Part shown: in pieces, positions 8,650 to 24,215 of the stretch
How the letters are laid out: every line of letters begins with the position of its first letter
Numbering within the stretch: position 1 is the stretch's first letter
NCBI RefSeq assembly: GCF_000215955.2
Contig: NZ_AFNV02000018.1
Coordinates: 1-64,000 of the forward strand
DNA length: 64,000 nt
Origin: Salinisphaera shabanensis E1L3A
GTDB lineage: Bacteria; Pseudomonadota; Gammaproteobacteria; Nevskiales; Salinisphaeraceae
Direction: 5' to 3'
Position numbers and translations under genes: made by a program
The notes under the pieces: generated by a model
Databases searched by the model: none
The model's input: only the letters and a program-made list of their open reading frames with translations
What the model was told of the DNA's origin: nothing

Positions 8650-9591
8650 ATGAGTAGCGCAGAAGACACCACCGATCGCAACAAGACCGAGCCGCTGGCC
8701 GACGACGCGCGCGTGGATCTCGACGCGGTGTTCGAAGAATCCCAGATCCAGGAAGTCTTCGACCAGTTGGATCGCGACCTGGTGGGCCTGACCCCGGTGA
8801 AGACGCGGATTCGCGAGATCGCCGCCCTACTGCTGGTCGATCATGTGCGCCGCCAGTTCGATCTCGCCTCGGACACGCCGACCCTGCATATGTGCTTCAC
8901 CGGCAATCCCGGCACCGGCAAGACCACGGTCGCCGAACGCATGGCCCAGATCCTGCACAAGCTCGAGTATGTGCGCGAAGGCCATCTGGTGTCGGTGACG
9001 CGTGACGATCTGGTGGGCCAGTACATCGGCCATACCGCGCCCAAGACCAAGGAAGTCATCAAGCGCGCGATGGGCGGCGTGCTGTTCATCGACGAGGCCT
9101 ATTATTTGTATCGGCCCGAAAACGAGCGCGACTACGGCCAGGAATCGATCGAAATACTGCTACAAGTCATGGAAAACCAGCGCGATGATCTGGTTGTGAT
9201 TCTTGCCGGCTACAAGGATCGAATGGACCGGTTCTTTGAATCCAATCCGGGGTTTCGCTCAAGGATCGCCCATCACGTCGACTTTCCGGACTACGACGTG
9301 GGTGAGCTCTGCTCAATCAGCGAGCTAATGCTTGCAGAGCAGCATTACGTGTTCAGCGACGATGCACAGATGGCGTTCGAGGACTATATCGATCGGCGCA
9401 TGCGCCAGCCGTACTTTGCCAATGCCCGGTCGATTCGCAACGCACTCGATCGATTGCGCTTACGCCAGGCAGCGCGGTTGTTCAAAGCCGGCGGCGCGGT
9501 CACCAAAAAACAGCTGATGACGATCGAGGCCGAGGATGTCCTTGCCAGCCGGGTATTCGGCCTCCCGGTCGAAAGCCGAAGCAGCGATTAA
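8650..9591 (+). CDS. cbbX: Red-type RuBisCO activase, AAA+ ATPase CbbX
   Basis: A 313-residue AAA+ protein. Walker A is GNPGTGKT (residues 85-92, K91), and Walker B ends in D148-E149 of LFIDEAYYL. CbbX hexamers, activated by ribulose bisphosphate, pull on the C-terminus of red-type large subunits to release inhibitory sugar phosphates. Position directly after cbbLS and length match the family. The N-terminal acidic segment (residues 1-35) is typical. An AGGAGG-like site precedes the ATG. Confidence 0.96.
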
Positions 9592-9729
9592 TCGCTACCG
9601 TTCTCGTCTTGTATTGTGTTGTGTGCGACCTTATTTCGATAAATATTTCCCGGCTTCGGATCCAGGTCAAACACTGCCAATGTGGCGTGCACGCGCGGCT
9701 GTGGTGGCGGGCATCGGTCGAAGCCGCTA

Positions 9730-10770
9730 ATGTCGGTGCACATGACAGATACGCTTACTTCGTTTACCGATCGCCGGCGGAATAAGAATTCGGCGCCGCC
9801 ACCGCGCGCGGAATGGCCCGCCTGGCCGATCTATGGCCTGGTCGATGATCTCTATCCCGTCGTTGCGGCGTGGCATGCAAACGGCCATCGCGTTGCACTC
9901 GCTACGCTGGTAAGCATCGTCGGCTCGTCACCGCGCCCGCTCGGCAGCGAAATGGCGATCAACGAACACGGTGAAGTCGCGGGCTATGTATCCGGCGGCT
10001 GCGTGGAAGGCGCGGTCGCGGCTCAGGCGCTTGAGGTATTGAAAACAGGCACGCCGGCCATGCTCGATTATGGCGCGGGTAGCCCGGTGCTGGACGTGCA
10101 GCTGACCTGTGGCGGGCGTATTGGCATCTTCGTTCGCGCGATCGACGATGTGGGCGAGTATGTCGCGCACTGGGGCGAAGCGCGTGAGCGGCGTCAGCCT
10201 CTCGATGTAGCGATCGATCTCGAAAGCGGCACGCATCGCTATGGCCCGGCACACAACGAGGCCAGCCATCGCATATTCCATCAACGTTACCTGCCGACGC
10301 CGCGACTGGTTATTGCCGGCGGCGACCCGGTCACGCTCGCATTGGCACAGCTTGCGCCGACTTTCGGTTATGACGTCTTGTTGCTGCGGCCGTACGGCCC
10401 GCCTGCCCCGCCGCCGAATTCCACACTTGCGCATTACGATACGCGGCCGCTCGCACGCGCACTGGAGGCGCTTACATTAGACGCCTACACTGCGCTTTAC
10501 ACGCTGACGCATGACATCGACGACGACCATTCAGCGCTTGCGAAAGGTTTGGCGTCACCCGCATTCGCGGTCGGCGCTTTGGGAAGCCGCAGCAAGGCAG
10601 CGGACCGAATTGAACGCCTTCGTGCCGCGGGTTTTTCTGTTGAAGCGTTGCAGCGACTGCATACGCCGGCCGGGCTGTCGATCAACGCCCGCGAGCCGCG
10701 CGAAATTGCGCTATCGGTGCTTGCAGAGCTTGTCGCTCTGCGTGCCCGCGTGAGCGCAGCCACGGCGTGA
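9730..10770 (+). CDS. XdhC/CoxI-family molybdenum cofactor maturation protein
   Basis: A 346-residue XdhC-family protein, which binds molybdenum cofactor, promotes its sulfuration or modification and delivers it to xanthine-dehydrogenase-type enzymes. The N-terminal XdhC_CoxI domain has the SGGCVEG motif with C91, and the C-terminal Rossmann domain begins near LVIAGGDPV. The start is set at 9730 (MSVHMTDT); the ATG at 9742 is equally possible because neither has a clear Shine-Dalgarno. Its stop overlaps the GTG of the MocA-like gene, and the three-subunit molybdoenzyme follows, so it is the functional equivalent of PaoD/XdhC for that enzyme. Confidence 0.88.
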   Translation: MSVHMTDTLTSFTDRRRNKNSAPPPRAEWPAWPIYGLVDDLYPVVAAWHANGHRVALATLVSIVGSSPRPLGSEMAINEHGEVAGYVSGGCVEGAVAAQALEVLKTGTPAMLDYGAGSPVLDVQLTCGGRIGIFVRAIDDVGEYVAHWGEARERRQPLDVAIDLESGTHRYGPAHNEASHRIFHQRYLPTPRLVIAGGDPVTLALAQLAPTFGYDVLLLRPYGPPAPPPNSTLAHYDTRPLARALEALTLDAYTALYTLTHDIDDDHSALAKGLASPAFAVGALGSRSKAADRIERLRAAGFSVEALQRLHTPAGLSINAREPREIALSVLAELVALRARVSAATA

Positions 10771-11420
10771 TCGGCGCGATCGTGCTGGCCGGCGGTGCGT
10801 CGACGCGCTATGGCCATGACTCCAAACTGCTGGCGTGGCTGGCCGGCCGAACCGTTATCGCACGCAGCGTGGCTGTGCTCGATGACCAACCGGTCCGGCC
10901 TGTCATTGTCGTTACCGGGCGAGAACGCCAACGCGTACGTCGGGCGGTGCAGGCGCAAGCAACCGGATCTCGCCGGTATCGCTGGGTTCATAATCCGAAC
11001 TACCGCAGCGGTATGGCAGAAAGCCTGCGCTGCGGGCTGGGCGCGTTGCCGACACGCTGCGATGCCGCTCTGATCATGCTGGGCGATATGCCCGGTATCG
11101 AAAAACGCACGATTTCAAGACTCTGTCGTCTTTGGCGGCCGGGTCTGGACTACGTTCGACCGGTGTGTGCTGGCCGACCCGGCCACCCCGTGATCGTTTC
11201 GCGACGGTTGTTCCCCGATCTCGCCCGCCTCGACGGCGATCGCGGCGCCAAAGCCATTCTCGACCAGGTACCCGCGACGCGTTTTCGTGTACTCGACGCC
11301 CCCGCGGGCTGTTTGCGCGATGTCGATACCCCGGCCGCGGCTCGTCGTGCCGAACGTTCTTTCAATCGCGGTCATAGCCAAAACCAAACCGGCACCATTT
11401 CGTCATCGTTTATGGTGTAG
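10767..11420 (+). CDS. MocA-like molybdenum cofactor cytidylyltransferase
   Basis: A 217-residue nucleotidyltransferase. The N-terminus (VLAGGASTRYGHDSKLL) is the nucleotide-binding signature of MobA/MocA proteins, and LGDMPG carries the metal-binding aspartate. MocA attaches CMP to molybdopterin, giving the cytosine dinucleotide form used by PaoABC-like enzymes. The GTG start overlaps the XdhC-type stop (GTGA at 10767-10770), implying translational coupling. The protein has an unusual C-terminal tail of about 20 residues after the conserved part. An uncharacterised NTP-transferase role is possible, but the context strongly favours cofactor maturation. Confidence 0.88.
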   Translation: MIGAIVLAGGASTRYGHDSKLLAWLAGRTVIARSVAVLDDQPVRPVIVVTGRERQRVRRAVQAQATGSRRYRWVHNPNYRSGMAESLRCGLGALPTRCDAALIMLGDMPGIEKRTISRLCRLWRPGLDYVRPVCAGRPGHPVIVSRRLFPDLARLDGDRGAKAILDQVPATRFRVLDAPAGCLRDVDTPAAARRAERSFNRGHSQNQTGTISSSFMV

Positions 11421-11511
11421 GAGTATCGGTATTACCGTTCAGTCCAGACAATAAAACAAAAGCATTCCACCGAGCGACGCGCCGAGCGTTGCCCAAAAAA
11501 CGGAGAAATCC

Positions 11512-12171
11512 ATGAACAACCGTGACACCCGCGGTGCCGCCAGCAACGCTGGCGAACCCAAACATTCGGCATCGCGCCGTCGCTTCATGAAGACGGTCGG
11601 TATGTCCAGCATAGCCGCGGCAACGTCCGGCGCGGGCATTGGCCAGGCGTTTGCCGACGAAGGCGACGCCCCCACGCCGACAACTGCCGATGCGCCCGCC
11701 GCCGGCAAGACGCGTGTATCGTTCACGATCAACGGCCAGATGAAGCAGATCGACGTCGCCCCCAATGTGATTCTTCTCGATGCGATCCGCGACGAACTAC
11801 AGCTCACAGGCACCAAGAAAGGCTGTGACCACGGCCAATGCGGCGCCTGCAACGTGCATGTCAACGGCACCGTCGTCAATTCCTGTCTGAGCCTGGCCGT
11901 GATGCACGACGGCGACGAGATCACGACCGTCGAAGGGCTGTCCAAAGACGGCGAGCTGCACCCGATCCAGCAGGCTTTCCTCGATGAAGATGCCTACCAG
12001 TGCGGTTACTGCACGGCGGGCCAGATGATGACCGCAACCTATGTGCTGGGCAGTTCGCATATTGGCGACAGCGATGATGCCGTACGTGAAGCCATGAGCG
12101 GCAATATCTGCCGCTGCGGTGCGTACAAGAACATCCTTTCGGCGGTTCAATCCACGCGCGGCAAGGTCTAG
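11512..12171 (+). CDS. PaoA-like [2Fe-2S] subunit of periplasmic molybdenum hydroxylase
   Basis: A 219-residue iron-sulfur subunit with a twin-arginine signal (SRRRFMK, residues 21-27) followed by a hydrophobic stretch ending at QAFA, so the assembled complex should be exported by Tat. Eight cysteines bind two [2Fe-2S] clusters: C105, C110, C113 and C125 in the plant-ferredoxin domain, and C164, C167, C200 and C202 in the helical domain. It relays electrons from the molybdenum centre. It is the first of three structural genes and has the order of E. coli paoABC (aldehyde oxidoreductase). An isoquinoline-oxidoreductase alpha subunit is the alternative name. Confidence 0.92.
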   Translation: MNNRDTRGAASNAGEPKHSASRRRFMKTVGMSSIAAATSGAGIGQAFADEGDAPTPTTADAPAAGKTRVSFTINGQMKQIDVAPNVILLDAIRDELQLTGTKKGCDHGQCGACNVHVNGTVVNSCLSLAVMHDGDEITTVEGLSKDGELHPIQQAFLDEDAYQCGYCTAGQMMTATYVLGSSHIGDSDDAVREAMSGNICRCGAYKNILSAVQSTRGKV

Positions 12172-12182
12172 GAGACGTTTCG

Positions 12183-13166
12183 ATGCGAAATTTCGAATAT
12201 CAGAAAGCCGATAGCGTGAATGCTGCAGTGTCGGCCCACGCGGGCCAGCCGTCGTCGTTCGTTGCCGGCGGTACCACCCTGCTCGACCTGGTTAAGATCG
12301 ACATCATGCAGCCCGAGCGCGTCGTCGACGTAAACGGGCTGCCGCTCTACGACGTCGAAGAACTCGACGACGGCCGGCTCAAGATCGGCGCGATGGTGTC
12401 CAATACCGATCTCGCCTACCACCCCAAGGTCGTCGACCAGTACGCGGTGCTTTCCGAAGCATTGCTATCCGGCGCTTCGACATCGCTTCGCAATAAGGCG
12501 ACAACTGGCGGCAACGTCATGCAGCGAGTGCGTTGTCCGTATTTTCGCGACGGCGTATCGGCCTGCAACAAACGTGAACCCGGTTCGGGCTGTGCGGCGA
12601 TCGGCGGGCACAACCGCAGCGTGCACGCCGTGCTGGGCACCAGCGACAAGTGCATTGCCAGCCATCCGTCCGATATGTGCGTAGCCATGGCAGCGATCGG
12701 CGCAACCGTGCTGGTGAGCGGGCCGAACGGCGAGCGCGAGATCGATTTCCTCGACTTCCATCTGCTGCCGGGCGACTCGCCGGAAAAGGAGCATGCGCTG
12801 GAAGCCGACGAATTGATTACTCACGTGGTGCTGGATGCGCCGATCAAGGGTAGCCGCTCGACCTATCTCAAACTGCGCGACCGCGCGTCCTACCAGTTCG
12901 CCCTGGCCTCCAGCGGCGTGATTATCGCGACCGATGGCAACACCATTCGTGATGCCCGGATCGCCATGGGCGGTGTCGGCACCAAGCCCTGGCGCGCACG
13001 CGAGGCCGAGCAGGCGCTCATCGGCCAGCCCGCGACCGAGGCAAGCTTCAAGAAAGCCGCCGAGATCGCTTTCAAGGGCGCTACGCCCTACGAACACAAC
13101 GCGTTCAAGATTCCGCTGGGACAGCAGGCTGTCGTACGCAGTCTCACCAACGCCACCGCGGCCTGA
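12183..13166 (+). CDS. PaoB-like FAD subunit of molybdenum hydroxylase
   Basis: A 327-residue FAD-binding subunit. The FAD motif is FVAGGTTLLDL near residue 30, and TTGGNVMQRVRC near 108-118 is the second conserved FAD segment. Four cysteines (C118, C128, C137, C157) sit where the extra [4Fe-4S] cluster of PaoB-type subunits is bound, which separates this enzyme from ordinary xanthine dehydrogenases. It has no signal sequence, consistent with piggy-back export with the Tat-bearing subunit. It starts 11 bases after the [2Fe-2S] gene. Confidence 0.92.
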   Translation: MRNFEYQKADSVNAAVSAHAGQPSSFVAGGTTLLDLVKIDIMQPERVVDVNGLPLYDVEELDDGRLKIGAMVSNTDLAYHPKVVDQYAVLSEALLSGASTSLRNKATTGGNVMQRVRCPYFRDGVSACNKREPGSGCAAIGGHNRSVHAVLGTSDKCIASHPSDMCVAMAAIGATVLVSGPNGEREIDFLDFHLLPGDSPEKEHALEADELITHVVLDAPIKGSRSTYLKLRDRASYQFALASSGVIIATDGNTIRDARIAMGGVGTKPWRAREAEQALIGQPATEASFKKAAEIAFKGATPYEHNAFKIPLGQQAVVRSLTNATAA

Positions 13167-13185
13167 GGGCAGAGGACAAACAACC

Positions 13186-15408
13186 ATGACTGACAAGATT
13201 CAAGCCAAGATCATCGGCGCGTCCAAGCCGCGTATCGATGGCCCGCAAAAGCTCAGCGGGCAGGCCATGTATGCGGCGGATCATCACCTGCCGAACATGG
13301 CGTATGCCTACGGCGTTTTCAGTACCGTGGCCAGCGGTACGATCGACAATATCGATCTCTCCAAGGCCAAGCAGATGCCGGGGGTGATCGATATCTTCCA
13401 TCACGATCATTTCCCCAGCCTGTATCGCACGCCCAGCAGCTTTGCACAGGAAAACAAAGTTGATGAAACACGCCTGCCGTTCGAGGATGGCAAGGTGTAC
13501 TACCCGGGCCAGTTCGTTGCGCTCGTCGTTGCCGATACGTTCGCGAACGCCCGTGCTGCGGCCTATGCGGTGAAAGTCGCCTACAGCGCCGATGCCGAGC
13601 CCATCGCCACCCTGAGTCAGGCGCTCGAGCGCGGCGACAAGCCGAAGACTGCGGATTCCAGCGGCCATAGCCGCGGCAACCCCGACAGCGCGTTCGAGTC
13701 CTCGGCAAACCAGATCGACGTGACCTATGTCACGCCGATGGAAACCCATAACCCGATGGAAATGCACGCGAGTGTGGCCAATTGGGAGAACGGCGATCTC
13801 GTGCTTTATGAGTCGTCGCAGGGCGTGATCTTCGCGCGCAATGTGATGGCCAAGGTCTTTGGTTTGCCACCGGAGCGGGTCGAAGTCCGCTCGCCGTTCA
13901 TCGGCTCCGGCTTCGGCAGCAAGCTCTGGCTGTGGCCGCATGCGATTGCCGCAGCTGCTGCGGCACGCGAAGTCGGCCGCCCGGTCCAACTGGTGGTGCC
14001 ACGCCAGCAGATGTTCACGACCACGGGCCACCGCCCGCCGACCCAGCAACAGATTCGTATTGGCGCAGACGACAACGGCAAGCTCACAGCGTTAACCCAC
14101 GATTCGGTCAATACCACCTCGATGGTCGATACCTACGTCGAAACCACAGGCAGCTGTACGAAAAGCCTGTACGACTGTGAAAACCTGCGCGTGAGCCATG
14201 CGACCATCGGTGCCAATCACGGCACGCCGACCTCCATGCGTGCGCCGGGCGCTGCACCGGGGCTTTTCGCGCTCGAATCGGCCATGGATGAAATGGCCGA
14301 AAAGCTGAACATGGATCCGCTCGAGTTCCGCAAGGCCAACTACACCGAGCGCGACCAGAGCATGGATCTGCCCTTCTCCAGCATCCATCTCATGGAAGCC
14401 TTCGACAAAGGTGCCGAAAAGTTCGGCTGGTCGAAGCGCAATGCCGAGATCGGCTCGATGGGCGATGGCGACGAGATTCTCGGCTGGGGTATGGCAGCGT
14501 GCAACTGGGAAGCGCTGAAGATGAACTGCGACGCCCGGGTTTCGCTCCGTGCCGACGGCACGGCGTACGCCTCCTGTGCAACCCAGGACATCGGTACCGG
14601 CACGTATACGATCGTGGCCCAAGCTGTCTCGGCGATTACTGGCATACCGCTGGACAAGATCGAGGTGGAGCTGGGCGACTCCAGCTATCCGAGCGGACCG
14701 GTTTCCGGCGGGTCCTGGGCAACGGCGACAACGCTGCCGGCAATCGCAGAGGCCACGCGATCGGCGATTGACGCACTGAAAAGCTACGCCATCAGCGACG
14801 GCGGTGCCTTTGCGGGGGCGAAGTCGGACGACCTGAGCTTCGACGACGGCAAGCTCGTCGATGGTGACGGCAAATCGGTCGCCTACACCGATGTGCTCAG
14901 CCAGCTCAAACTCGCCAATGCCGATGGCGAAGCGCATACGCCCGGCGCGCCGCAAGGCGAATATTCGTTCCGCTCGTTCGGAGCCCACTTCGTCGAGGTG
15001 CGCTGGGACCCGGGCATTTCGCGCCTACGGGTGTCGCGGGTGGTGAGCGCGATCGACGTCGGCCAGATCATCAACGAAAAGACCTCGGCGAATCAGGTCG
15101 AAGGCGCGATCGCCATGGGCATCGGTATGGCGCTGTTCGAAGCCACCGAGTACGACGAAGGCTCGGGCCTGCCGGTGAACAACAACTATGCGGAATATCT
15201 GGTGCCGGTTCATGCCGACCAGCCGGATTCCGTCGATGTGATCCTGCTCGATCATCCGGACTATGCGTTCAACGAATTCGGGGCGCGCGGTATTGGCGAA
15301 ATTGGTATCACCGGTATGGCCGCCGCGGTGGCCAACGCGGTTCATCACGCCACCGGCAAACGCATCCGCGAGTTGCCGATCCGCCTTGAAGAGCTGATGA
15401 GCGCCTAG
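13186..15408 (+). CDS. PaoC-like molybdopterin-binding catalytic subunit
   Basis: A 740-residue molybdenum subunit. The ATG at 13186 is preceded by an AGAGGA site and lies 19 bases after the FAD gene; the longer in-frame opening upstream overlaps that gene and is rejected. Conserved features include GSGFGSK, the RAPGAAPG loop near residue 350, and the catalytic glutamate E705 in RGIGEIG. It oxidises an aldehyde or aromatic heterocycle with water as oxygen donor; by likeness to PaoC, aldehydes are the best guess. The substrate is not readable from sequence. Confidence 0.92.
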   Translation: MTDKIQAKIIGASKPRIDGPQKLSGQAMYAADHHLPNMAYAYGVFSTVASGTIDNIDLSKAKQMPGVIDIFHHDHFPSLYRTPSSFAQENKVDETRLPFEDGKVYYPGQFVALVVADTFANARAAAYAVKVAYSADAEPIATLSQALERGDKPKTADSSGHSRGNPDSAFESSANQIDVTYVTPMETHNPMEMHASVANWENGDLVLYESSQGVIFARNVMAKVFGLPPERVEVRSPFIGSGFGSKLWLWPHAIAAAAAAREVGRPVQLVVPRQQMFTTTGHRPPTQQQIRIGADDNGKLTALTHDSVNTTSMVDTYVETTGSCTKSLYDCENLRVSHATIGANHGTPTSMRAPGAAPGLFALESAMDEMAEKLNMDPLEFRKANYTERDQSMDLPFSSIHLMEAFDKGAEKFGWSKRNAEIGSMGDGDEILGWGMAACNWEALKMNCDARVSLRADGTAYASCATQDIGTGTYTIVAQAVSAITGIPLDKIEVELGDSSYPSGPVSGGSWATATTLPAIAEATRSAIDALKSYAISDGGAFAGAKSDDLSFDDGKLVDGDGKSVAYTDVLSQLKLANADGEAHTPGAPQGEYSFRSFGAHFVEVRWDPGISRLRVSRVVSAIDVGQIINEKTSANQVEGAIAMGIGMALFEATEYDEGSGLPVNNNYAEYLVPVHADQPDSVDVILLDHPDYAFNEFGARGIGEIGITGMAAAVANAVHHATGKRIRELPIRLEELMSA

Positions 15409-16633: not shown

Positions 16634-17008
16634 ATGAAATATACCCTGCCACTGCTCGTGGCTGGCAGTCTATGCCTGCCCGTGTCGGCATTCGCGGCAA
16701 AAACCCCGGCCCATGATTACCCGACCCAGGCCCGCGTCGAGTATGTCTACGACTGTATGAATCGGTTGGGCGGCGAGAATTACGACACGCTCTATAAATG
16801 CTCTTGCAGCATCGACTATATCGCCGACCAACTGCCCTACGACGACTATGTCACGCTCGATACCTATCAGCGTGGGCAGAACGCCGCGGGTGAACGCCCC
16901 GAGGTGCTGCGAGAGGGCAGTATTGCGCGTGACAGTCGTAGTCAGCTGGCCAAGCTCAAGTCCGAAGCTGACGATCAGTGCCTGATTGATAGCGACGCAC
17001 AGCAATAA
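16634..17008 (+). CDS. Periplasmic hypothetical protein of the quinoprotein cluster
   Basis: A 124-residue protein with a clear signal peptide (MKYTLPLLVAGSLCLPVSAFA, predicted cleavage after AFA). The mature part has four cysteines (in YDCMNR, YKCSCS and near the C-terminus in DDQCL), suggesting two disulfides or a metal site, and it is rich in Tyr and Asp. No haem motif is present. A strong GGAGGAG site precedes the ATG at 16634. It lies 460 bases upstream of xoxF on the same strand and may be expressed separately. The family is not recognised; a role in alcohol oxidation is inferred only from position. Confidence 0.75.
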   Translation: MKYTLPLLVAGSLCLPVSAFAAKTPAHDYPTQARVEYVYDCMNRLGGENYDTLYKCSCSIDYIADQLPYDDYVTLDTYQRGQNAAGERPEVLREGSIARDSRSQLAKLKSEADDQCLIDSDAQQ

Positions 17009-17468: not shown

Positions 17469-19415
17469 GTGAAATTACAACCCGCCAAGGGGGCTCTTCG
17501 CTTGGCTACGGCTGCTATAGCCGTTTCCTCGCTGATGGGGTCCGGTATCGTTTTTGCCCAAAACGATAATGCTGACAGCCAGAACAGCGATTCAAGCAAA
17601 CAAGACAACACGTCGCAGTCCACTGATCTGGTCCAGCTGCAAAAGGACCCGAGCAACTGGACCATGTGGAGCGGCCAGTACAACGGTCAGCGCTATAGCG
17701 AACTCGATCAGATCAACGCTGAAAACGCGGGGCAGCTGTCCCCGGCATGGACGTTCTCGACCGGCGTCCTGCGCGGCCATGAAGGTGGCCCGCTGGTGAT
17801 CGGCGATACGATGTATATCTCGACGCCTTTCCCGAACAAGGTCTTTGCGCTCGATCTGGAAACGCACGCGATTAAGTGGAAATACGAGCCCACACAGAAT
17901 CCGCAAGTCATTCCGATCATGTGTTGCGATACCGTCAACCGTGGCCTGGCCTACGGCGACGGCAAGATATTCCTCCAGCAGGCGGATACCACGCTGGTCG
18001 CACTGGACCAGAAGACCGGCAAGGTCGAATGGAAGTCGGTTAACGGCGATCCGACCAAGGGCGAAAGCGCGACCAATGCCCCGATCGTGATCAAGGACAA
18101 GGTCTATACCGGTATTTCCGGCGGCGAGTTCGGTGTGCGCGGCCATCTGACGGCCTACAACGTGTCCGACGGCAAGATGGCCTGGCGTGCGTATAGCACC
18201 GGTCCGGACGACACCATGCTCATCGATCCGAAAAAGACGATGAACGCGGTCACTCAAAAGCCTGTTGGCGCGGATACCAGCCTGAAGAGCTGGGGAGGCG
18301 ATCAGTGGAAGATCGGCGGTGGTACGACCTGGGGCTGGATGACCTACGATCCGGAGCTCGACCTGCTCTACTACGGTACCGGCAACCCGGGCACCTGGAA
18401 CCCGACGCAACGCCCGGGTGATAACAAGTATTCCATGACCATCTTCGCCCGCGATCCGGACACCGGTGAGGCCAAATGGCTTTATCAGATGACGCCGCAC
18501 GACGAGTGGGATTACGACGGCGTCAACGAAAAAATTCTGGTCGACCAGAAAATCGATGGCAAGGACCGCAAGCTGGTCGTGCACTTCGACCGCAACGGCT
18601 TCGCCTATACCCAGGATCGGGCGACCGGCGAACTGCTCGTCGCCAAGAAGTACGATCCGGCCGTCAACTGGGCAAGCGGGATCGACATGAAGACCGGTCG
18701 TCCGAAGCTGGTGGATGAATATTCCACCGACGGCAAAGTCGATCAGAACGTCACCGGCATCTGCCCGGCCGCGCTCGGCTCGAAGGACCAGCAGCCCGCG
18801 TCCTACTCGCCGAAGACGGGGCTGTTCTACGTGCCGACCAACCACGTCTGCATGGACTATGAGCCGTCGAAGGTCGACTACACCGCCGGCCAGCCCTATG
18901 TCGGCTCGACCGTTGCGATGTATCCGGGCCCGCAGGACATCGTGAACCCGACGAAAGAGTTCGAAGGCAAGCGCATGGGCACCTTCATCGCTTTCGATGC
19001 GACCACCGGCGAGATCAAGTGGTCGGTACCGGAACGCTTCTCGGTATGGAGTGGCGCCCTGGCCACCGCCGGCGATGTGGTGTTCTATGGCACTCTCGAA
19101 GGCTATCTGAAGGCGATCGATGCCAAGACCGGCAAGGAGCTCTATAGCTTCAAGACCCCGTCGGGCATCATCGGCAACGTCAACACCTGGAAATACGATG
19201 GCAAGCAGTATGTCGGCGTGCTTTCGGGTATTGGTGGCTGGGCGGGTATCGGCATGGCTGCCGGTCTGACCGACCCGAATGCTGGCCTCGGTGCAGTGGG
19301 TGGTTACAAGGACCTCAAGAACTATACCCAGCTGGGTGGTGTTCTGACCGTGTTCACCCTGCCCGATTCCGTCGCCAAGAAAGCGCATACCAGCGAAAAA
19401 GTCGCGTCCAAGTAA
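17469..19415 (+). CDS. xoxF: PQQ-dependent alcohol dehydrogenase, lanthanide XoxF type
   Basis: A 648-residue periplasmic quinoprotein with an eight-bladed propeller that oxidises methanol or another primary alcohol and passes electrons to cytochrome c. It starts with GTG after a strong GGAGGAG site. The signal peptide ends near residue 30 (IVFA). The vicinal cysteines C152-C153 (MCCDTVNRG) form the unusual disulfide next to PQQ. In [12 protein letters not shown]348 is the catalytic aspartate and D350 is the extra aspartate that marks rare-earth-dependent enzymes (MxaF has alanine there). A Ser/Asp/Asn-rich linker follows the signal peptide. No C-terminal cytochrome domain is present. Ethanol or another alcohol cannot be excluded as substrate. 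Confidence 0.95.
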
Positions 19416-19482: not shown

Positions 19483-19528
19483 ATTGGCCGATTTGAATAC
19501 GGCCGAATGTGAAACCGAGGAGATTTTT

Positions 19529-20128
19529 ATGACCCCCACTCGTCAGACGATCGCAGTGACGCTAGTCGCGCTCGCCACATGGTCGTTGAGCTCGACCGTC
19601 CTTGCGGCCGACGACGCACCGATTGTTAACGATTACAGCAATATGGGCGCCGAATACAATCCGTCGGGCGATAGTCAGAGCAGCGATAAATCTGCAGCTG
19701 AAAACACGTCCGATTCGAGCAAGGAGACCGACTCGAAGCAAGCCGCTGCGAACACGGGCGCCGATGGCAAGCCTTACAAGGTCGAATGCGCCGATGGAAA
19801 ATGCAAGGTCAGCGAAGATGTCATGGTGGGCTACGAGAAATTCGGCAGCCACTGTTCACAGTGTCATGCACAGAACGCGGAAGGCAGCACATTCGCGCCG
19901 AGTCTCGTGCAGCGTCTCAAGGGCATGGATCAAGGCCGATTCACGGCGGCTGTTGCAGGGGGTGTCACCCGCCTCGACTCGACCACGGGTCAATACAGCG
20001 TTATGCCGGCCTGGGCGAATAACGAAGATGTGATGAACCATGTTCAACAGATCTGGGCGTTTCTAAAGGCACGCTCGGATGGCGAATTGCCAGCCGGCCG
20101 GCCCCAGCAAATGGACGACAAAAGCTGA
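19529..20128 (+). CDS. Cytochrome c, likely electron acceptor of XoxF
   Basis: A 199-residue secreted c-type cytochrome. The signal peptide ends near residue 27 (VLAA). The haem site is C109-S-Q-C112-H113, and M159 (YSVMPAW) is the likely sixth ligand. Between them lies the usual single-haem fold of XoxG or cytochrome c550 proteins. A Ser/Asp/Lys-rich spacer (about residues 45-75) and an additional C87/C92 pair precede the haem domain. The ATG at 19529 follows a GAGGAGA site; an earlier in-frame ATG would place 15 residues before the signal. It is just downstream of the xoxF terminator and 10 bases upstream of the metallo-hydrolase gene. Confidence 0.88.
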   Translation: MTPTRQTIAVTLVALATWSLSSTVLAADDAPIVNDYSNMGAEYNPSGDSQSSDKSAAENTSDSSKETDSKQAAANTGADGKPYKVECADGKCKVSEDVMVGYEKFGSHCSQCHAQNAEGSTFAPSLVQRLKGMDQGRFTAAVAGGVTRLDSTTGQYSVMPAWANNEDVMNHVQQIWAFLKARSDGELPAGRPQQMDDKS

Positions 20129-20137
20129 TTCGCCCGC

Positions 20138-21076
20138 ATGCGATCTCGGCTCTACGGTGTCTCCGTTGCGGTTGTCTTGCTCAACAGCGCCGTCGCGTTC
20201 GCCGACAGCAGTGCTGCCCCGTTGCAGGTGGCGCGTATAGCCGATGGTGTATTCGTGCATGAAGGCCTGCAAGAAGAGGCGGATGGGCAGAACCGAGGTG
20301 ATATCGCCAACCTCGGTTTCGTGGTCGGCAACAAATGCGTCGCTGTGATCGATACCGGCGGTAGTCCGTCGGTGGGACATGCGCTACGTCGAACGATCGA
20401 CGAATTGACCACCGCACCGGTTTGCTACGTCATCAATACACATATGCATCCCGATCACGCACTTGGTAACAGCGCTTTCGTGGACACGCAAGCGCGTTTC
20501 ATCGCAGCCGCGGGCTTCGCGCCCGGGCTGGCCGCGCGAGGTGCAACGTATCTCGAACGCGCTCAACAAGTGCTCGGCGTTGAAACGAGTGTCGATTGGC
20601 TGGTGATGCCGGACCGGGTAATCAAAAAGACGACGGCGTTGGATCTCGGTGACCGGACGTTGCTACTCAACGTGTGGCCGACCGGCCATACCGACAACGA
20701 TCTCACGGTATTCGACGAAAGCAGCCGTACCCTGTTTACCGGCGATCTGCTATTCGTCGATCGCGTACCGGCAATCGACGCCAGCCTGACCGGTTGGATC
20801 GGCGTACTGGATTCGCTGGACGCGCGCTCCCGTGATGTCGCGCACGTCGTTCCCGGCCATGGGCCGGTCGGCCAACGTCTGTCGGCAATGCTTATGCCGG
20901 AAAAACGCTATCTGAAAACGATACGCCGCGATGTGCAGCAGGCTATCGCTGACGGCTATGACCTCAACTACACGAGCGCGCATGCAGCGCGTGAACAGCG
21001 GGATGAATGGCTGCTGTTCGACGACTATCACGTGCGTAATGTCACCGCCGCCTATACGGAGCTGGAATGGCAATGA
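20138..21076 (+). CDS. Quinoprotein-associated MBL-fold metallo-hydrolase
   Basis: A 312-residue metallo-beta-lactamase-fold protein with an N-terminal signal peptide (about residues 1-22). The metal motif is H102-x-H104-x-D106-H107 (NTHMHPDHALGN), with further ligands in TGHTDND (histidine), LFTGDLLF (aspartate) and the C-terminal VVPGHGP. Such proteins are repeatedly found with quinoprotein dehydrogenases and SoxYZ-like carriers and are named quinoprotein relay system zinc metallohydrolases; by analogy with SoxB-type chemistry they may hydrolyse a carrier-bound product. The reaction is not established. It overlaps the next gene by ten bases. Confidence 0.88.
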   Translation: MRSRLYGVSVAVVLLNSAVAFADSSAAPLQVARIADGVFVHEGLQEEADGQNRGDIANLGFVVGNKCVAVIDTGGSPSVGHALRRTIDELTTAPVCYVINTHMHPDHALGNSAFVDTQARFIAAAGFAPGLAARGATYLERAQQVLGVETSVDWLVMPDRVIKKTTALDLGDRTLLLNVWPTGHTDNDLTVFDESSRTLFTGDLLFVDRVPAIDASLTGWIGVLDSLDARSRDVAHVVPGHGPVGQRLSAMLMPEKRYLKTIRRDVQQAIADGYDLNYTSAHAAREQRDEWLLFDDYHVRNVTAAYTELEWQ

Positions 21077-21963
21077 ACGCTTGGAACCGCTTTCGCTCGA
21101 ACGGAAACCACGTGCTCGGATGGAACCGTAATGCGCTTGTCGCGATATCGGTGTTTATCGTTTTCATGAGTTCGGCCGTTGCCGACGTACAACGACGCGA
21201 CCAGGACGAGGCAGCATGGAAAAGTCTGCGTACCCAGCATTTCGGCGATCGAGCGATCGCCGATGGTGAGACGGTAGTTACGCTCGATGCACCCTATCGT
21301 GCCGAAGATCCTGCCGTGGTGCCTATCACCATCACCGACCTGCGCGCTGGTTCTGATGCGCCAGCGATTCGGAGAATATGGTTGGTAATAGACAACAACC
21401 CGGTACCGATGTCGGCGGCGTTCGAGTTTGGCCCTGCAGCGCGTTCGGCAACGATCGCCATGCGTGTACGGGTCAATTCCTACACCTACATGCGGGCGCT
21501 CGCGGAAACCGACGACGGCCGGCTGTATATGGTCAAGCGCTATGTCAAAGCTAGCGGTGGCTGTTCTGCACCGATCGGTCGGGACCTCGACGCGGCGCGC
21601 GAAAACATGGGTCAGATGCGCTTGCGTCGGGTACGTGTGGACGACACGGACACCACGCGTACCCAACTCATGATTCGCCATCCCAACATCACCGGGCTGC
21701 AGATGGATCAACTGACCCGCTTGGTGGAACCCGCGCATTTCGTGGACGCGATAACGATCCGTAAAGGCGATGCCCTGGTCCTCGATTCGACCATGACATT
21801 CTCTTTAAGCGCCAATCCCAGCTTGCAGTTCAATGTGGCAGACCATGCCGAGGGCGATCTCCATGCCCACGTGCATGACAACAAAGACAACGAATTCGAA
21901 CAAACCTGGCCGGCCGCCACTGGGACCGGCGACAAGACGACAGACGACGGAACGACTTCATGA
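21067..21963 (+). CDS. Quinoprotein-associated fused SoxYZ-like carrier protein
   Basis: A 298-residue secreted protein (N-terminal hydrophobic signal around residues 18-36). The first half resembles SoxY and carries the carrier cysteine in a SGGC motif (C166), here internal instead of at the C-terminus; the second half resembles SoxZ. SoxYZ carries sulfur intermediates on a swinging-arm cysteine. This fused form is known from quinoprotein gene clusters, where its cargo is unknown. Two overlapping starts (21067, 21073) couple it to the metallo-hydrolase gene, and the stop overlaps the next ATG. Confidence 0.86.
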   Translation: MAMNAWNRFRSNGNHVLGWNRNALVAISVFIVFMSSAVADVQRRDQDEAAWKSLRTQHFGDRAIADGETVVTLDAPYRAEDPAVVPITITDLRAGSDAPAIRRIWLVIDNNPVPMSAAFEFGPAARSATIAMRVRVNSYTYMRALAETDDGRLYMVKRYVKASGGCSAPIGRDLDAARENMGQMRLRRVRVDDTDTTRTQLMIRHPNITGLQMDQLTRLVEPAHFVDAITIRKGDALVLDSTMTFSLSANPSLQFNVADHAEGDLHAHVHDNKDNEFEQTWPAATGTGDKTTDDGTTS

Positions 21964-22871
21964 TGGCAAGTACTCGACTCTCACAACACCTCGGCGGTTT
22001 CGCGCTCTTTGCGGCACTCGGGCTATGTGTTGCCCTGCCGGCAATGGCTCAGCGCGATCGCCAGGTCGAAAACCCCGCGGCCGACGCATTAAGAGTATGT
22101 GCCGACCCCAGCAACATGCCGTTTTCCAACGACAAGCGGGAAGGCTTCGAAAACCGTATTGCGGCCTTGTTCGGCGAAAAGCTGGGCGTGCCGGTGGAAT
22201 ACACCTGGATGGCCGAACAGATGGGCTTTGGCCGGAATACGCTCAAGCGCTGGCTACCCGAAAAGAATCGCTACGCCTGCGACCTGATCATCAGCGTTGG
22301 CAGCGCTTTTGAAGTCGGCAAGACCACCCTGCCTTACTATCGCTCGACCTATGCGCTGGCCTATACCAAAGGCCACGGCCTGGACACGATCAAGAAACCT
22401 GCCGATCTGCTGGCTTTGCCCGAGGCCAAGAAGAACGACCTGCGCATCGGTGTTTTCACCGGATCGCCGGCGGGTGACTGGGTCATCCAGAACGGAATGA
22501 TCGGCCAGATCGTGAGCTATCGCGCGCAATCCGGCGGCTATGACAGCAATCCTGCGGATATGGTCACGAAAGACCTGGTGGGCGGCGATATCGATATCGC
22601 CGTGGTTTGGGGCCCGATCGCGGGGTACTACGCCAAGCAGATCGAAAGCCCGGATATCGCGGTCGTCCCGTTTTCGCGCGATGACGGCCCGATGTTCGAC
22701 TTTCCTGTATCGATGGGGGTGCGCTACGGCAACGATGCATGGCTCGAGACCGTACAACGGCTTATCGACGACAACCAGGACGCGATCAACGCCATCCTCG
22801 ACGACTACGGTGTGCCGCGCGTACCGTTGCGCGAAGCCGATCGTCAGGTACAGGAAGACGACGATGATTGA
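21960..22871 (+). CDS. XoxJ-like periplasmic binding protein
   Basis: A 303-residue periplasmic solute-binding-fold protein (signal peptide ending near PAMA, about residue 30; mature start LRVCADPSNMPFSN). It belongs to the quinoprotein-dehydrogenase-associated MxaJ/XoxJ family. XoxJ is thought to help activate or mature XoxF. The ATG overlaps the previous stop (ATGA), and the stop overlaps the next start, so it sits in the middle of a coupled operon. No ABC permease or ATPase is nearby, which argues against transport. Confidence 0.88.
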   Translation: MMASTRLSQHLGGFALFAALGLCVALPAMAQRDRQVENPAADALRVCADPSNMPFSNDKREGFENRIAALFGEKLGVPVEYTWMAEQMGFGRNTLKRWLPEKNRYACDLIISVGSAFEVGKTTLPYYRSTYALAYTKGHGLDTIKKPADLLALPEAKKNDLRIGVFTGSPAGDWVIQNGMIGQIVSYRAQSGGYDSNPADMVTKDLVGGDIDIAVVWGPIAGYYAKQIESPDIAVVPFSRDDGPMFDFPVSMGVRYGNDAWLETVQRLIDDNQDAINAILDDYGVPRVPLREADRQVQEDDDD

Positions 22872-23586
22872 GCGCTATCCAAGCCCTCGCAAAACAATGA
22901 AAAGATTGTTGCTTGCCAGCCTTGTGGTCGCCTGTACCGGCGTATTTGCGGCACCCTCGTCCGGCGAAAAACCGGACGACGATTTCTCGCAGGCAAACCG
23001 GCTGCTGTTCATGACCGACCATCTGCAGAATCTGCAGCCCCCTGCCACGCTCGACTACGAGTTCTCGCATCGGGCCGACGACGGTGAAAGCTACGACGAC
23101 CGTGTCGTACTGGATATCGAACAAGGCGATGGCGCGGGCAAGCAGGTTGCTGTGGACTTTCTCAGCGGCGACCGGCATCGTTATGTGCCGGACGTGGGTA
23201 ATGCCCGCGGCAATCCCATCATCATGATGTTCCTGCAAAACGATGTATCAACGCTTGCGCAGCGTACCGGCGGCAGCTGGCGTTACTTCCAGCGCCAGAT
23301 CAAGTTCGCGCTTCAGGACAAGGCGCAGGTAACGCAGGAAACCGCGCGCTTCGACGGCAATACAGTGGCCGTCAAACGCATTCAGCTCCTGCCCTATGCC
23401 AGCGAAAAGACGCACCGCGAAAAGATGGCGGGCGCCGCCCAGCGGCGTTATACCTTTGTGCTATCCGATGACGTACCGGGCGGCGTGCTTGAAATAAGCG
23501 CAGAAACACCGGCAGCGCAGGGCCAGGTCGCATCACTCGACAAACTGACACTCACCCCGTCGCCCGCCAACGAAGATGTCGGGTAA
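22864..23586 (+). CDS. Periplasmic hypothetical protein in the quinoprotein operon
   Basis: A 240-residue protein. The start at 22864 has an AGGAAG site and overlaps the preceding stop; the ATG at 22897 (MKRLLLASLVV...) would also give a good signal peptide. Cleavage is likely after GVFA. The mature protein has no cysteine and is predicted to be beta-rich, with charged loops and a conserved-looking GGSWRYFQRQ segment. It may be an outer-membrane or periplasmic accessory factor for the dehydrogenase, on position alone. I do not recognise the family. Confidence 0.8.
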   Translation: MIERYPSPRKTMKRLLLASLVVACTGVFAAPSSGEKPDDDFSQANRLLFMTDHLQNLQPPATLDYEFSHRADDGESYDDRVVLDIEQGDGAGKQVAVDFLSGDRHRYVPDVGNARGNPIIMMFLQNDVSTLAQRTGGSWRYFQRQIKFALQDKAQVTQETARFDGNTVAVKRIQLLPYASEKTHREKMAGAAQRRYTFVLSDDVPGGVLEISAETPAAQGQVASLDKLTLTPSPANEDVG

Positions 23587-23627: not shown

Positions 23628-24215
23628 ATGACGACAAAACGCCCTGGCTGGGCTCTGGCAGCATGGGTCACGCTTGGGTTTGCTGCAGCAGCGGCGACTA
23701 CGGGTACTGCCGTCGCCGCCGAGGCCAGAACACTGGTGGTACTGCCGTTCGATATGGTGGACACCAGCCTGCAAGGCGAGCTGAATCATGGCCCCCTGGC
23801 CGATGACGTCGCCCGCCTGAAGCGAACCGAGGCCGTTGTCCAGCGCGCGCTCGCGGCACGTGACGAGTTCGACATCTTGCCCCGCGAGCCGATTGCCGGG
23901 CAGATCGAACAGGCACAACAGAGCTATCGCTATCTCTATGCCTGCAACGGCTGCGAGATCGATCTTGGGCGAGACGCCGGCGCGGAACTCGTGCTTACGG
24001 GTTGGGTACAGAAAGTGAGTAATCTCATCATCAATATCAATGCCACGCTCTACGATGTCGAGCGCGGCGAGGCGGTCGGCGGCGCATCGGTCGATATGCG
24101 CGGCAATACCCACAGCACGTGGCGGGCCGCCGCGCTGTATCTCGTCAACCACAGCTTGCCCGCGAACTACCATTCCCGTCAGGCACCAGAACAGCGAGAC
24201 AGCGCGCCGCCCTAG
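23628..24215 (+). CDS. DUF2380/DUF3280-like periplasmic protein
   Basis: A 195-residue protein with an N-terminal signal (about residues 1-31). The mature part begins ARTLVVLPFDMVDTS, a pattern of DUF2380/DUF3280 proteins that are often encoded beside PQQ-dependent dehydrogenases. Two cysteines (CNGC) near the centre may form a disulfide or bind metal. It is the last gene of the plus-strand quinoprotein operon and converges with the DUF302 gene. Function is unknown. Confidence 0.8.
   Translation: MTTKRPGWALAAWVTLGFAAAAATTGTAVAAEARTLVVLPFDMVDTSLQGELNHGPLADDVARLKRTEAVVQRALAARDEFDILPREPIAGQIEQAQQSYRYLYACNGCEIDLGRDAGAELVLTGWVQKVSNLIININATLYDVERGEAVGGASVDMRGNTHSTWRAAALYLVNHSLPANYHSRQAPEQRDSAPP

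Follow-up and report, generated by a model that had tools for sequence, protein, structure and literature searches.

Fused SoxYZ-like carriers encoded together with MBL-fold hydrolases at quinoprotein loci, which the initial annotation of the locus described here had named as an established pairing, are indeed already known. Both protein families are named in NCBIfam (TIGR04557 for the carrier, TIGR04559 or TIGR04558 for the hydrolase) and have been discussed in papers of 2024 (PMC11237559) and 2026 (PMC12997753), with PMC11582611 cited as well. In the 2026 review, PP_2677 and PP_2678 of P. putida are presented as exactly such a carrier/hydrolase pair. Their RB-TnSeq phenotypes were minimal in tests made without rare earths, and it was proposed that they help to form disulfides, stabilise the cofactor or protect PQQ against sulfur (PMC12997753). 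In the 2024 study, a fused SoxYZ-S4 was found with xoxF, and SoxYZ-S2 with a PQQ-ADH and soxH; the authors suggested that these proteins might shield methanol dehydrogenase against thiosulfate or else take part in carbon metabolism (PMC11237559).

Genetic information is available from M. extorquens AM1, in which transposon mutants were selected that no longer produced formaldehyde through XoxF1; insertions recurred in xoxF1, xoxG, xoxJ, orf6, orf7, pqq and lut genes. The table of genes with at least four insertions holds no SoxYZ/MBL entry, and loss of orf6/orf7 was found to impair lanthanide-dependent methanol growth (PMC7391723). In addition, the XoxF1 enzyme of M. extorquens sets formaldehyde free in vivo and depends on the cytosolic pathway (PMC6414531). 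The pair is therefore not the main aldehyde route in M. extorquens, and if it acts on aldehydes at all, it more likely clears them than carries out an indispensable step. In such a screen, a phenotype of the pair could be masked by redundant copies; as published, the genetics do not suggest that XoxF activity depends on the pair.

The window analysed here is a stretch of 64,000 nucleotides from Salinisphaera shabanensis E1L3A, in which both reading frames of the initial annotation were recovered (Table 1). They lie within a collinear block on the plus strand that leads from a small cysteine-containing protein through xoxF, an xoxG-like cytochrome gene, the hydrolase, the fused carrier, xoxJ and a secreted protein to a DUF3280 protein, and the gene order is identical in Salinisphaera sp. 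UBA6602 (L041), the closest of the named relatives. The core of this block, xoxF-xoxG-hydrolase-carrier-xoxJ, is the operon of a lanthanide-type methanol dehydrogenase. Together with the TIGR04557 and TIGR04559 matches, the XoxF neighbour bears out the earlier description of a carrier and hydrolase in an alcohol oxidation operon. The hydrolase stop codon overlaps a carrier ATG in an ATGA at 21073-21076, so the carrier may start at 21073 and not at 21067; a second ATGA (21960-21963) joins the carrier to xoxJ. Promoter and terminator scans remained at chance level. The two secreted proteins without a Pfam match, labelled c6 and c13 in Table 1, recur in other genomes, c6 beside the carrier and c13 beside c6 and the carrier. 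Synteny with a Methylobacterium sp. DB0501 locus (L109: pqqD, pqqE, c13, c6) makes them the probable counterparts of M. extorquens orf6 and orf7, and the transposon selection would therefore have resolved the neighbours of the module and passed over the pair. Upstream of the xox block, positions 8650-15408 encode CbbX, XdhC- and MocA-like factors and a PaoABC-related molybdenum aldehyde oxidoreductase (11.5-15.4 kb), which still adjoins the xox block in L041, L308 and L309 and is a possible second aldehyde oxidation route.

Table 1. Coordinates of the features in the window and of related MBL homologues at other loci (locus given before the position).
Feature	Position	Strand	Basis
Small secreted protein (c6), 124 aa, CSCSID motif, probable orf6 homologue	16634..17008	+	Cluster, neighbourhood, sequence
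xoxF, predicted lanthanide-type PQQ methanol dehydrogenase	17469..19415	+	Best PDB matches, residue positions
c-type cytochrome, xoxG-like	19484..20128	+	TIGR03874 nearest family (79.5 bits, cut-off 161.8); adjoins xoxF
MBL-fold hydrolase, quinoprotein relay system zinc metallohydrolase 2 (TIGR04559), 312 aa, N-terminal signal sequence	20138..21076	+	391 bits (curated cut-off 280, E 2e-117); Pfam Lactamase_B; model pLDDT 96
HxHxDH codons (H102-H107) of the hydrolase	20441..20458	+	Invariant ligands
Fused SoxYZ-like carrier (TIGR04557), 298 aa (296 aa if start at 21073)	21067..21963	+	279 bits (curated cut-off 140, E 2e-83, full profile 1-226); Pfam SoxY 57-166, SoxZ 193-281; SoxY and SoxZ folds
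C166 codon of the carrier, arm motif SGGCSAP	21562..21564	+	Sequence; invariant
xoxJ-like periplasmic binding protein (TIGR03871)	21960..22871	+	256 bits (cut-off 212)
Secreted protein (c13), 240 aa, probable orf7 homologue	22864..23586	+	Neighbourhood, sequence
DUF3280 protein, last of the collinear block	23628..24215	+	Pfam PF11684, E 1.8e-36
MBL homologue with R-C-x-x-C	L143:10675-11637	+	
MBL homologue with R-C-x-x-C	L092:3184-4149	+	
MBL homologue with R-C-x-x-C	L113:10927-11868	+	
MBL homologue with R-C-x-x-C	L117:5366-6289	+	
MBL homologue with R-C-x-x-C	L103:4030-4983	-	

The dehydrogenase of the block is predicted to be an XoxF lanthanide methanol dehydrogenase, with XoxF 6dam (911 bits) and 6oc5 as its best PDB matches. 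Its catalytic aspartate is D348, the second aspartate two residues on, D350, is presumably the lanthanide aspartate typical of XoxF, and C152-C153 are adjacent cysteines. The hydrolase retains the HxHxDH motif that had been reported as intact and, with H184, D203 and H241, a complete two-metal MBL ligand set (H102, H104, D106, H107, H184, D203, H241). All seven ligands were found to be invariant in an alignment of 70 homologues from which two low-scoring paralogues were left out. Its model is closest to an uncharacterised Burkholderia MBL protein (8d2z) and to chlorothalonil hydrolytic dehalogenase (6uxu), at Z 32.6 each, followed by B1/B2 lactamases and alkylsulfatases; these matches fix the fold of the predicted zinc hydrolase and not its substrate. 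Assignment to glyoxalase II (TIGR03413, 26.8 bits against a cut-off of 200.8) or to the subclass B1 metallo-beta-lactamases (NF033088, 58.8 bits against 200) was rejected. Persulfide dioxygenases are absent among the sequence and structure matches listed for the hydrolase, which excludes nothing. At several betaproteobacterial or related loci, an additional MBL homologue beside the carrier has lost the HxHxDH ligands and carries an R-C-x-x-C motif instead (Table 1), with an intact hydrolase also present in L113, L103 and L117 and a motif resembling R-C-x-x-C in L310. These homologues are possibly pseudo-enzymes with a thiol-redox role; a survey of 369 genomes of the class, with 30 loci read, yielded no further CxxC pseudo-hydrolase.

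The carrier holds one cysteine in its whole chain, C166, and both G164 and C166 are invariant across 87 aligned homologues. This SGGC cysteine had been described as internal and as standing in place of the C-terminal arm of true SoxY. The internal position is correct, with 132 residues following C166 (in homologues the cysteine lies 118-141 residues from the chain end), but the proposed replacement is ruled out by alignment with SoxY (PDB 2ox5) and by the structural match: C166 is the aligned arm cysteine, corresponding to the GGC cysteine that ends SoxY, and it closes the SoxY-like domain. The SoxY arm is thus kept in the carrier and has been turned internal through fusion to SoxZ. In the predicted model (mean pLDDT 87), residues 48-167 match SoxY and residues 181-285 match SoxZ, and confidence falls to 73 at residues 161-170, as may be expected for a mobile arm. 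The GGC is retained in both carrier subtypes, as VKASGGCSAP in most carriers of the XoxF type and as GGGC in the PedH type. Membership among true SoxY proteins (TIGR04488, 76 bits against a cut-off of 125, with a GGC that is not C-terminal) was rejected, as was membership among true SoxZ proteins, for which the score is under the cut-off.

The genomic distribution links the pair closely to quinoproteins. In a sample of 398 genomes of the phylum, a fused carrier without an internal stop was present at least once in 44, and a PQQ alcohol dehydrogenase over the cut-off accompanied it in all 44, against 95 of the 398 overall (Fisher p 3e-32, phylogeny ignored). A hydrolase gene directly adjoins 40 of 54 carriers in the same orientation, mostly upstream in the TIGR04559 type and downstream in the other type. 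Counted on sampled dehydrogenases and not on every one, the lanthanide-type enzyme occurs in 42 of the 44 carrier genomes and in 21 of 40 sampled carrier-less genomes. Furthermore, among 41 relatives of the S. shabanensis genome, all 14 that combine a TIGR04558 hydrolase over the cut-off with a type-I dehydrogenase of 722 bits or more have a carrier, and none of the other 27 does; within the genus, seven genomes have the carrier and seven lack it. At a larger scale, the carrier is spread over hundreds of genomes, with at least 576 confirmed relatives in one scan. An exception to the co-occurrence is L140 (G364:C8:202149-202994), a TIGR04559 hydrolase (384 bits) whose genome has neither a fused carrier nor a TIGR03075 dehydrogenase that exceeds the limit. 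Fused carriers with a GGC arm also occur on IMG/VR viral contigs (L311-L319) amid phage genes for DnaB helicase, terminase and single-strand binding protein, and the flanking sequence retrieved shows neither a hydrolase nor xoxF; viral SoxYZ fusions had been mentioned previously (PMC11237559).

A second pair is encoded elsewhere in the same genome (C34; L003:8741-10557). Its carrier is divergent (111 bits, below the cut-off) and keeps GGGC, its hydrolase belongs to TIGR04558 (400 bits), and the pair adjoins a gene for a zinc alcohol dehydrogenase and one for an S-(hydroxymethyl)glutathione synthase. The relatives G405 and G401 have a block with a PedH-type dehydrogenase and PedF cytochromes between this second carrier and an M48 protease gene. 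G000, G400 and G403 lack the whole block, and there the M48 reading frame overlaps that of the carrier. Loss here and gain in G405/G401 are both compatible with this pattern, and XoxF remains in G000, G400 and G403. In these three genomes both genes of the second pair are open and constrained, with dN/dS of 0.37-0.45 for the carrier, whose GGC is kept, and of 0.18-0.21 for the hydrolase, which is under clear purifying selection. The formaldehyde-related neighbours of the pair weigh little as evidence, because formaldehyde genes are expected near xox in any C1 gene cluster.

Our tentative first choice, held with less than even confidence, is that the pair forms an auxiliary periplasmic thiol-adduct relay on lanthanide-type PQQ alcohol dehydrogenases, here XoxF, with an aldehyde as the likeliest cargo. 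Both proteins, which begin with signal sequences, would be exported to the periplasm, where the SoxY-like half may expose C166 at the tip of a flexible GGC arm and its SoxZ-like counterpart, by analogy with Sox, may dock partner enzymes. C166 would covalently pick up a small electrophile or adduct that arises while the alcohol is oxidised. The two-metal MBL hydrolase would remove it and restore the thiol, which is the task of SoxB in thiosulfate oxidation. The cargo would be the aldehyde product, a possibility already raised in the initial annotation: formaldehyde for XoxF, and for PedH/ExaF other aldehydes. It would be bound as a thiohemiacetal that, if oxidised, could become an acyl thioester hydrolysable by an MBL enzyme. 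Several observations count for such a relay: both subtypes retain the arm cysteine, which the alignment predicts to be equivalent to the cysteine by which SoxY binds its substrate; the two-metal site is conserved; and the hydrolase adjacency, the dehydrogenase in every carrier genome and the match with 14 relatives point the same way. A transposon table without SoxYZ/MBL is also as expected of a clearance role. Against an aldehyde relay stands the slight RB-TnSeq phenotype, obtained without rare earths (PMC12997753). A more elaborate version, a carbon-based Sox cycle in which the lanthanide PQQ dehydrogenase itself would oxidise the carrier thiohemiacetal to a thioester and the MBL hydrolase would free acid and thiol in the periplasm, is considered unlikely.

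The closest rival is sulfur scavenging, in which C166 would bind thiosulfate, sulfite or sulfane sulfur threatening the PQQ of the lanthanide enzyme and a SoxH-like hydrolase would free sulfate. To our knowledge, every characterised SoxY carries sulfur, which together with the SoxY homology counts for this idea and against an aldehyde cargo. Protection of the quinoprotein from thiosulfate or other sulfur compounds has been proposed, with reference to reports that SoxH can replace SoxB in Sulfurimonas CVO and that methanol use in Hyphomicrobium is inhibited by thiosulfate (PMC12997753, PMC11237559). The alkylsulfatases among the structural neighbours of the hydrolase are likewise in its favour. 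The genomic surroundings speak in two directions: in a Pfam scan of 132 neighbouring proteins, mostly products of unrelated genes, three rhodaneses were found, but no other sulfur family is among the 25 commonest, and a regular sulfur gene neighbourhood is lacking. In addition, a hand count showed that separate SoxY or SoxZ is missing in 21 of the 44 carrier genomes, and none was found in the S. shabanensis genome. The carrier is therefore independent of the Sox pathway, although protection would not need separate Sox subunits. Furthermore, the carrier is absent where only other PQQ dehydrogenases occur, whose PQQ should need protection too, unless the lanthanide raises PQQ electrophilicity. 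Altogether, sulfur scavenging is judged somewhat unlikely; as cargo, a sulfur adduct is about equally compatible with the evidence, and the aldehyde is placed slightly ahead because of the near-exclusive tie to aldehyde-making enzymes, the independence from Sox, the survival of a pair next to formaldehyde-related genes and the apparent dispensability for XoxF activity.

A role in maturation, in which the carrier would aid formation of the adjacent-cysteine disulfide or the insertion of PQQ or lanthanide into the dehydrogenase, was put forward in the 2026 review (PMC12997753) and would agree with the operon shared with xoxF and xoxJ and with the near-exclusive tie to lanthanide-type genomes. 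Adjacent cysteines, however, were found in all 52 dehydrogenases sampled from carrier genomes and in all 49 from carrier-less genomes, so the pair is not explained by them, and disulfide formation as the specific target of the carrier is rejected. The lanthanide-type enzyme is also owned by about half of the sampled carrier-less genomes, the table of genes with at least four insertions lists xoxF1, xoxG, xoxJ, orf6 and orf7 but no SoxYZ/MBL entry, the second pair persists without its dehydrogenase, and the hydrolase would have no obvious task. A maturation role is thus distinctly unlikely. Finally, electron transfer between quinoprotein and cytochrome, for which the family name 'relay system' and the rank of cytochrome c as commonest neighbouring Pfam family (6 of 132) could be invoked, is very improbable, as a lone conserved cysteine without a conserved partner makes a poor redox relay and the cytochrome gene adjoining xoxF already fills this known role.

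These results add to the published picture the genome comparisons that tie the carrier to lanthanide-type dehydrogenases, the universality of the adjacent cysteines, and the persistence of a second pair without an adjoining dehydrogenase. With them, the published disulfide idea loses specificity, an essential maturation role is weakened, and the cargo question is narrowed to a carbon or a sulfur adduct on a single cysteine.

Compared with known systems, the carrier is a further member of TIGR04557, now in a Salinisphaera XoxF operon. It shares the SoxY-SoxZ fusion, the GGC arm and the adjoining MBL hydrolase and PQQ dehydrogenase with PP_2677 of P. putida and with SoxYZ-S4 and SoxYZ-S2 (PMC11237559), and nothing substantial differs. 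As judged from its predicted ligands, the hydrolase likewise resembles the PP_2678-like, SoxH-like members of TIGR04559 in its complete two-metal set and its place directly upstream of the carrier, again with no substantial difference. The likeness to Sox thiosulfate oxidation (SoxYZ and SoxB) is one of outline, comprising a GGC thiol arm, a two-metal hydrolase and oxidising partner enzymes, whereas the internal arm, the fused subunits, the MBL fold instead of SoxB and the link to an alcohol dehydrogenase set the pair apart. With glyoxalase II, the hydrolase has the MBL fold in common and scores far below the cut-off of that family. By analogy, the chemistry proposed for the relay would be the same as in glutathione-dependent formaldehyde oxidation (Gfa, class III alcohol dehydrogenase and S-formylglutathione hydrolase), namely thiol adduct formation, oxidation and thioester hydrolysis, but with a periplasmic protein as the putative carrier and a quinoprotein as the possible oxidant.
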